Assembly: GCA_023701265.1 (NCBI GenBank)
Contig: JAMPXI010000008.1
Coordinates: forward strand, 1-37,548
Origin: Desulfuromonadales bacterium
GTDB taxonomy: Bacteria > Desulfobacterota > Desulfuromonadia > Desulfuromonadales > BM103
Direction: 5' to 3'
Length of the DNA stretch: 37,548 nucleotides
The position numbers and the translations under genes are program-made. Under the pieces are notes generated by a model that had not been told where the DNA came from, did no database searches, and was given only the letters and a program-made list of their open reading frames with translations. Positions 30,009 through 30,772 of this stretch are shown here, piece after piece. Each line of letters begins with the position of its first letter. Position 1 is the stretch's first letter.

Positions 30009-30091
30009 TACATCGACAATACTCAACCATTCGCGAGGATGGGGCGGAAAGCCTATAGGGTCTCATCGAGACAGCCGGGTTGCCGAAATGT
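30009..30091 (+). promoter_or_regulatory. GEMM-I cyclic-dinucleotide riboswitch (predicted GEMM-Ib, cyclic AMP-GMP type)
   Basis: The leader of the cytochrome gene matches the GEMM-I aptamer. CCATTC-GCGA-GGATGG (30027-30042) is the P1b-type stem with a GNRA tetraloop, followed by GGCGGAAAGCC (cf. GACGCAAAGCC). The second arm is AGGGTCTCATCGAGACAGCC then GGGTTGCCGA (to about 30086). These strings are the most conserved parts of the family. Anchoring on the CC of the first stem, the base equivalent to position 20 of the V. cholerae Vc2 aptamer is A (30021), where c-di-GMP-binding members have G; A there is characteristic of the Geobacter cyclic AMP-GMP class. The ligand call depends on that alignment. 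Confidence 0.85.
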
Positions 30092-30103
30092 CTCCGTGAA
30101 ATA

Positions 30104-30110
30104 GGCTGTC
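30104..30110 (+). promoter_or_regulatory. Candidate anti-aptamer strand of the GEMM switch
   Basis: GGCTGTC (30104-30110) is exactly complementary to GACAGCC (30070-30076), a conserved aptamer segment. Pairing would break the aptamer's second arm, so the two folds are mutually exclusive. A hairpin TTCCCTT/AAGGGAA near 30168-30187 lies downstream but has a poor T-run, so I cannot say whether the output is transcriptional or translational. Confidence 0.45.
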
Positions 30111-30247
30111 CCTCTCCAGATATCTGGACGAAATGAATCGGGGATGCCATTCCGAAGGAGGATCGTTCCCTTAAGTGCAAGGGAATAATTTCCGGCCAAC
30201 GGCCATAAACTTCAACGACAACTCAAAACAAGGAAAGAGGAAAAAAC

Positions 30248-30772
30248 ATGTTCAGGAATTTCAAGGCAATCATTTCCATGCTTGGCATCGTAGCCCTTCT
30301 GCTGACGACGTTTTCCACCATCGCCATCGCCGATCGCGGCGAGAGAGATCATAGGGGATATGAGAATTCATCGCGGCACAGCCGTGGGGATCACCAGGAT
30401 CGCCGTGATCACCGTGATTATGACCGTGACGAAGACGATGACGATGTGGTCGCCCCGGTCCCGGCTCCTGCCCCGGCTCCTGCCCCGGCTCCTGCCCCGG
30501 CTCCTGCCCCGGCTCCTGCCCCGGCTCCTGCCCCGGCTCCTGCTCCTGCTCCTGCTCCGGCTCCGGCTCCGGCTCCGGCTCCGGCTCCGGCTCCGGCTCC
30601 GGCTCCGGCTCCGGCTCCGGCTCCGGCCCCCTTGGACGGTGCGGCGCTGTACAACCAGAAATGCTCCGGCTGCCATGGCCAGGCATACTTTGGCGCGAAT
30701 GTTCCTTCGAGCCACCTCAGTGGGCGCGTCAGCCTGACCCCTGAGCAACTGGCGGCTATCAACGCGCTGTAA
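30248..30772 (+). CDS. Secreted monoheme c-type cytochrome with long Pro-Ala tether
   Basis: A 174-residue secreted protein. Residues 1-28 are a Sec signal peptide (FKAIISMLGIVALLLTTF). A His/Arg/Asp-rich segment follows (about 29-66), ending in EDDDD. Then comes a (Pro-Ala)n run of roughly 60 residues. The C-terminus LDGAALYNQKCSGCHGQAYF has one haem site C139-x-x-C142-H143. Only 31 residues follow it, ending TPEQLAAINAL; they include no Met, so the axial sixth ligand would not be the usual Met, and the domain looks like the start of a class I cytochrome c only. ATG 30248 has AAAGAGGAAAAAAC upstream. It is the only gene behind the GEMM riboswitch, followed by its own terminator. Confidence 0.82.
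   Translation: MFRNFKAIISMLGIVALLLTTFSTIAIADRGERDHRGYENSSRHSRGDHQDRRDHRDYDRDEDDDDVVAPVPAPAPAPAPAPAPAPAPAPAPAPAPAPAPAPAPAPAPAPAPAPAPAPAPAPAPAPAPLDGAALYNQKCSGCHGQAYFGANVPSSHLSGRVSLTPEQLAAINAL
30461..30628 (+). repeat. Tandem microsatellite encoding the Pro-Ala tether
   Basis: The repeat has three zones: seven 12-bp units CCGGCTCCTGCC (30461-30544, last unit ending CT), two 6-bp CCTGCT units (30545-30556), and twelve 6-bp CCGGCT units, the last CCGGCC (30557-30628). All keep the Pro-Ala frame. Unit number changes by whole codon pairs, so the tether length can vary without a frameshift. The array is simple-sequence DNA, not CRISPR. Confidence 0.95.

Follow-up and report, generated by a model that had tools for sequence, protein, structure and literature searches.

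In the iron-respiring Geobacter, the selectivity of a GEMM-I riboswitch for cyclic AMP-GMP is set by an adenine at position 20, and replacement of this base by guanine (A20G) switches the preference to c-di-GMP (PMC6456294). For the pgcA riboswitch, the preference for cyclic AMP-GMP is about 1200-fold (PMC6456294), and anti-termination is promoted by this dinucleotide in a Geobacter riboswitch (PMC6456294, PMC9262584). Hypr enzymes are marked by a serine at the base-recognition site of their GGDEF domain (PMC8835794). The cytochrome PgcA, in which the heme ligation is His/Met in domains I and II and bis-His in domain III, has been proposed to act by tethered diffusion (PMC11520253), and its homologs possess PTx and PAx stalks and one to six CXXCH motifs, including one homolog with a single CXXCH (PMC5732950).

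A related locus is found in a 37,548-nucleotide stretch of a Desulfuromonadales bacterium (contig JAMPXI010000008.1; this whole stretch is called the window), whose genome is a 2.7 Mb MAG that is 87% complete and shares its genus with genome G002. Aptamer and target belong to a known kind, namely a GEMM-Ib riboswitch with a PgcA-like target, and the sensor as well as the stalk design are already known. With a probability of about three in four, a GEMM-Ib aptamer that likely binds cyclic AMP-GMP tunes a tethered monoheme cytochrome here, using the products of the cell's own Hypr GGDEF enzymes. The features are listed in Table 1.

Table 1. Features of the riboswitch leader and of the cytochrome gene (positions in the window)
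Feature	Position	Strand	Basis or remark
GGAAAGGAGGT element 5' of the aptamer (GAAAGGAGGT)	29959..29969	+	conserved in the leaders of the window, G003 and G119
GEMM-I (c-di-GMP-I, RF01051) aptamer, GEMM-Ib type	30011..30087	+	cmscan 41.0 bits, gathering cut-off 35
A at the equivalent of Vc2 G20 (specificity base)	30021..30021	+	model column 11, cmscan alignment
P2 stem with GCGA tetraloop (GNRA type)	30027..30042	+	cmscan alignment and aptamer alignment
Conserved GEMM-I string GGCGGAAAGCC	30043-30053		
Conserved GEMM-I string GAGACAGCC	30068-30076		
Conserved GEMM-I string GGGTTGCCGA	30077-30086		
C at the equivalent of Vc2 C92 (partner of the ligand G)	30083..30083	+	model column 83
Hairpin 1, GAGACA:UGUCUC, alternative to aptamer P3/P1	30068..30094	+	folds of window and L038; same string in L214
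Hairpin 2, long stem-loop without U-run	30104..30146	+	same place in L038 and L214
Hairpin 3, UUCCCUU:AAGGGAA, then UAAUUUCC	30164..30187	+	weakly terminator-like, under scan threshold
Secreted tethered monoheme cytochrome, 174 aa	30248..30772	+	ORF list, Pfam, orthologs L038, L212, L213, L214
Tandem repeat (14.2 copies of a 12-nt unit) encoding the Pro-Ala stalk	30460..30630	+	
Compact heme domain, 46 aa	30632..30769	+	CSGCH 30662-30676; invariant His (residue 156) 30713-30715
Intrinsic terminator 3' of the cytochrome gene	30791..30816	+	terminator scan; single-gene unit

The first-pass annotation of this DNA had called a GEMM riboswitch from three conserved strings and had proposed an Infernal search with RF01051 as a check. 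The call is borne out by a significant covariance match with A at base 20, which spans the full model (1-87) with an E-value of 7.9e-5 against all 4227 Rfam families and of 1.4e-6 when this one family is searched over the genome, and which is the sole Rfam match across the entire window. All three strings are present in the order claimed, the distance given for the cytochrome gene is correct (160 nt between the aptamer's 3' end and the ATG), and the A that had been aligned by hand to G20 of Vc2 is the same base in the covariance alignment. There it adjoins the C21-U22/G-G pairing, and the pocket base A47 is kept as A at 30048. The aptamer shares Rfam family, fold and pocket with the GEMM-Ia riboswitch Vc2, but has A for G20 and C-U/G-G for G-C/C-G beside the pocket, whereas the A20 core and the P1-P2-P3 architecture are those of the Geobacter GEMM-Ib switches (pgcA/GSU1761, Gmet_0970, pilM), and a cytochrome target and Hypr GGDEF enzymes in the genome are found here as in the Geobacter systems.

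A pattern for the A20 core finds more than 100 loci among 84,980 species genomes, almost all of them in Geobacter, Geomonas, Geotalea and related MAGs, and one copy in the genome of the window, while the same pattern read backward as a control gave 0 matches wherever the core pattern was searched. The pattern itself demands A20 and A47, and the invariance of these two bases among the 142 distinct aptamers is therefore no proof; C92, which is left free by the pattern, is invariant in all 142 as well. In the same aptamers two P2 pairs vary with the pairing kept (T-A, C-G and T-G at 30030/30039; C-G, T-A and T-G at 30031/30038), and covariation in the outer P1, where the large MAFFT alignment is out of register, was left out.

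The source genome has 19 GEMM-I matches, 18 of them above the cut-off, and of these 18 copies 15 carry G20, including copies ahead of multiheme cytochromes; A20 is found only in the window's copy and in L004 and L016, the latter two with a different core. In such a genome the aptamer might bind c-di-GMP, or both dinucleotides, so that the gene would track the general c-di-GMP level, and it fits this explanation that some A20 GEMM-I RNAs are promiscuous, but in the window copy the A20-C21-U22 core known from the Geobacter cyclic AMP-GMP class is complete, and the genome encodes Hypr-type GGDEFs, which makes a response to c-di-GMP improbable. The two Hypr-type proteins, L031 (receiver-GGDEF, in architecture like GacA) and L034 (GAF-GGDEF), carry GHLVGS with Ser in place of Asp; as evidence for this particular site they are weak, because Hypr-type GGDEFs occur in 22 of the 22 genomes of the family, even in those without the A20-C-U core pattern. 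By analogy with the GEMM-Ib members measured elsewhere, it is a well supported expectation that the aptamer most likely binds 3',3'-cyclic AMP-GMP, and the assignment to the presumed cyclic AMP-GMP class made in the first-pass annotation agrees with every sequence test that could have refuted it (covariance score, A20, Geobacter-type core, Hypr GGDEFs).

Other GEMM-I copies of this genome precede genes for secreted proteins, too. Three tandem aptamers (L008, L012, L015; G000:C123:4056-4347) stand before a secreted cytochrome with 8 CXXCH and two (L010, L014; G000:C59:51692-51879) before one with about 19 CXXCH, all with G20 and with one terminator each, and c-di-GMP control is predicted for these multiheme cytochromes. 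L004 (G000:C39) and L016 (G000:C7) have an A-G-C core and not A-C-U; the former is followed by a gene for a small secreted protein and then a hemagglutinin-like gene, the latter by a gene for an uncharacterised secreted protein.

The target protein begins with a Sec signal, judged by eye (MFRNFKAIISMLGIVALLLTTFSTIAIA-DRG), and continues with a His/Asp/Arg-rich segment that ends in DDDD, a Pro-Ala stalk of about 60 residues and the heme domain; no Cys that could belong to a lipobox is found around the signal cleavage site. While the first-pass annotation had called the design non-standard and the protein a possibly unrecognised electron carrier, the combination of a Pro-rich stalk with a heme domain has already been published (PMC5732950, PMC11520253), and the unusual part is the short heme domain without Met. 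With PgcA and its PTx/PAx homologs the protein has in common the Sec signal, the disordered Pro-rich stalk, the small monoheme c domain and the GEMM-Ib riboswitch upstream. Unlike PgcA, it carries a single heme and lacks a lipobox; a charged His/Asp/Arg segment precedes the stalk, and the Met ligand segment is missing from its heme domain of 46 residues.

A second tethered cytochrome is encoded in the window on the minus strand (11463-12050). It is predicted to be a lipoprotein, its Pro-Ala-rich stalk measures about 80 residues, and its domain of the class III/c7 type has three CXXCH motifs; this gene has no GEMM-I match. The window also encodes an outer membrane efflux protein of the TolC kind to which SPOR repeats are fused (30825-33092, minus strand) and, by eye, nitrogenase cofactor genes (25-8951; NifB-like C-terminus, NifN, NifE, NifV-like).

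A first protein search, which covered 58 relatives, gave no full-length relative, and full-length relatives were found with a two-sequence profile searched over the order. Orthologs or homologs of the same plan, with signal, charged segment, Pro-rich stalk and heme domain, are encoded behind an A20 riboswitch in G003 (L038), behind two in tandem in G114, behind three in G089 and behind at least one in G102, which lies upstream on its contig; in G033, two A20 riboswitches precede a triheme protein of this plan, and Geobacteraceae MAGs contribute four further loci (L046, L049, L069, L080). Going by these gene neighbourhoods, the adjacency of A20 riboswitch and tethered cytochrome is conserved in other genera; the window has a single riboswitch, whereas tandem sets of two or three precede several of the orthologs. 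In G001 and G002, which belong to the same genus, an A20 riboswitch with a clear terminator lies ahead of a different, multi-domain cytochrome.

The isolated heme domain scores 30.2 bits against Pfam Cytochrome_CBB3 (cut-off 27), but the Pfam domain is covered over its first 60% only. The best alignment is with the terminal domain, of Met type, in the triheme homologs L021 and L022, whose heme domains are the nearest ones and of the PgcA domain I/II kind, and compared to these a gap of about nine residues removes the segment INNNxGGMGF with the Met ligand; no Met follows the CXXCH. The partial alignment and the missing GGMG segment would also be expected of a truncated remnant that no longer works as a cytochrome, but the 46-residue form ending in INAL-stop is found in four genomes of three families (the window's, G114, G102, G119), where 32 columns are invariant, among them CxxCH, Ser155, His156 and Arg160, while the stalks differ strongly in sequence (PTPDP, IVTPDP, DPVT). 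A non-functional remnant is thus very improbable, and a truncation by the assembly was rejected since the short form is common to the four genomes. An AlphaFold model has a mean pLDDT of 83.8, and Foldseek gave no significant match in the PDB (best E 1.2), with domains 1 and 2 of PgcA as top neighbours. Bis-His ligation by homology to PgcA domain III is unsupported, as the best alignment is with the Met-type terminal domains of L021 and L022. His156, the one invariant candidate, could serve as the second heme ligand, and the alternative would be a five-coordinate heme.

The second deviation concerns the leader. Of 144 related riboswitches, 137 have an aptamer whose 3' strand is complementary to a downstream strand that is followed by a T-run and thus forms a terminator, which ligand binding would prevent, and three of the remaining seven show a hairpin with a T-run by eye. 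This overlapping terminator is the usual platform of GEMM-Ib riboswitches, though the aptamer class is defined without it. In the same comparison neither the window leader nor that of L038 in G003 has one. The leader of L214 in G119 lacks it as well, and unlike in Geobacter the 160-nt leader of the window holds three other hairpins instead. A terminator scan from the aptamer to the ATG (30087-30248) revealed no intrinsic terminator over threshold, and since none overlaps the aptamer either, the known ON-switch platform is absent. The earlier statement that the riboswitch "controls" the cytochrome therefore goes too far for a leader without the terminator by which the class works elsewhere.

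The L214 leader shares GAAAGGAGGT upstream and the exact string GAGACAGCCGGGTTGCCGAAATGTCTCC with the window's leader type, and an exact pattern for the latter matches in only 3 of 277 genomes of the class (the window's, G003 and G119). In each of these three leaders hairpin 1 (GAGACA:UGUYUC, which excludes P3/P1), a long hairpin 2 and the UUCCC hairpin 3 can form, and the positional conservation of hairpins 2 and 3 points to a functional platform of a different kind. The output of the window leader might run through hairpin 1, Rho or RNA stability, and the leader may also not switch. An upstream ORF that would follow AAAGGAGGT and run across the aptamer was rejected by eye, its GTG not being conserved in L038, and so was a sequestration of the Shine-Dalgarno sequence by the leader, for which only five pairs were seen by eye, again not conserved in L038.

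The lack of an overlapping terminator could also mean that the aptamer is a relic, which may still bind its ligand but no longer switches after the terminator was lost, with the gene being constitutive or under other signals. The G119 leader fits this explanation, as its P2 stem-loop is deleted although it shares 28 identical nt over P3/P1 with the window; because P2 is deleted and the Rfam match is gone (aptamer region at about 750-835 of contig G119:C114), this copy is probably no aptamer. The region could be a relic, an assembly error or a variant that functions without P2, and judged by this loss the leader may be decaying or have taken another role. A relic is nevertheless unlikely in the window, since no other part of the leader is as well conserved across genera as the aptamer (86% identity over 87 nt with the G003 ortholog's, the rest of the leader being mostly diverged), the P1 pairing is preserved by different bases in the window, L038 and L214 (by eye), and hairpins 2 and 3 hold their position in all three leaders.

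For a cyclic AMP-GMP-responsive cytochrome gene, the aptamer, A20, the conserved adjacency, the synthase signature, the absence of the terminator and the Met-less heme domain are what is read from the sequence, and the following course can be proposed. The Hypr GGDEF enzymes of the cell would make cyclic AMP-GMP, which would be bound by the aptamer in the leader of this single-gene unit and would block hairpin 1, the competitor of P1/P3. The amount of the PgcA-like, Pro-Ala-tethered cytochrome would presumably adjust to cyclic AMP-GMP, and the protein, probably exported to the periplasm or the surface, may there transfer electrons, His156 probably acting as the second ligand of the heme. The system is a variant because it deviates in two conserved features, the compact Met-less heme domain and the terminator-less leader. 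A more far-reaching idea is that there is a distinct Desulfuromonadales leader type, in which the aptamer acts through the conserved hairpins instead of a terminator and drives a new class of compact tethered cytochromes with a bis-His or five-coordinate heme in 46 residues, and this is so far a tentative and somewhat doubtful proposal.

The cyclic AMP-GMP-dependent expression of a tethered cytochrome would extend the link between this dinucleotide and extracellular electron transfer from Geobacter to a little-studied lineage of the Desulfuromonadales, with an orthologous target set, the tethered cytochrome behind one to three A20 riboswitches, in several families. The compact heme domain may serve as a small test system for electron transfer by tethered diffusion, and the leader, as a naturally terminator-less variant, lends itself to studying how a GEMM-Ib aptamer could act without intrinsic termination.
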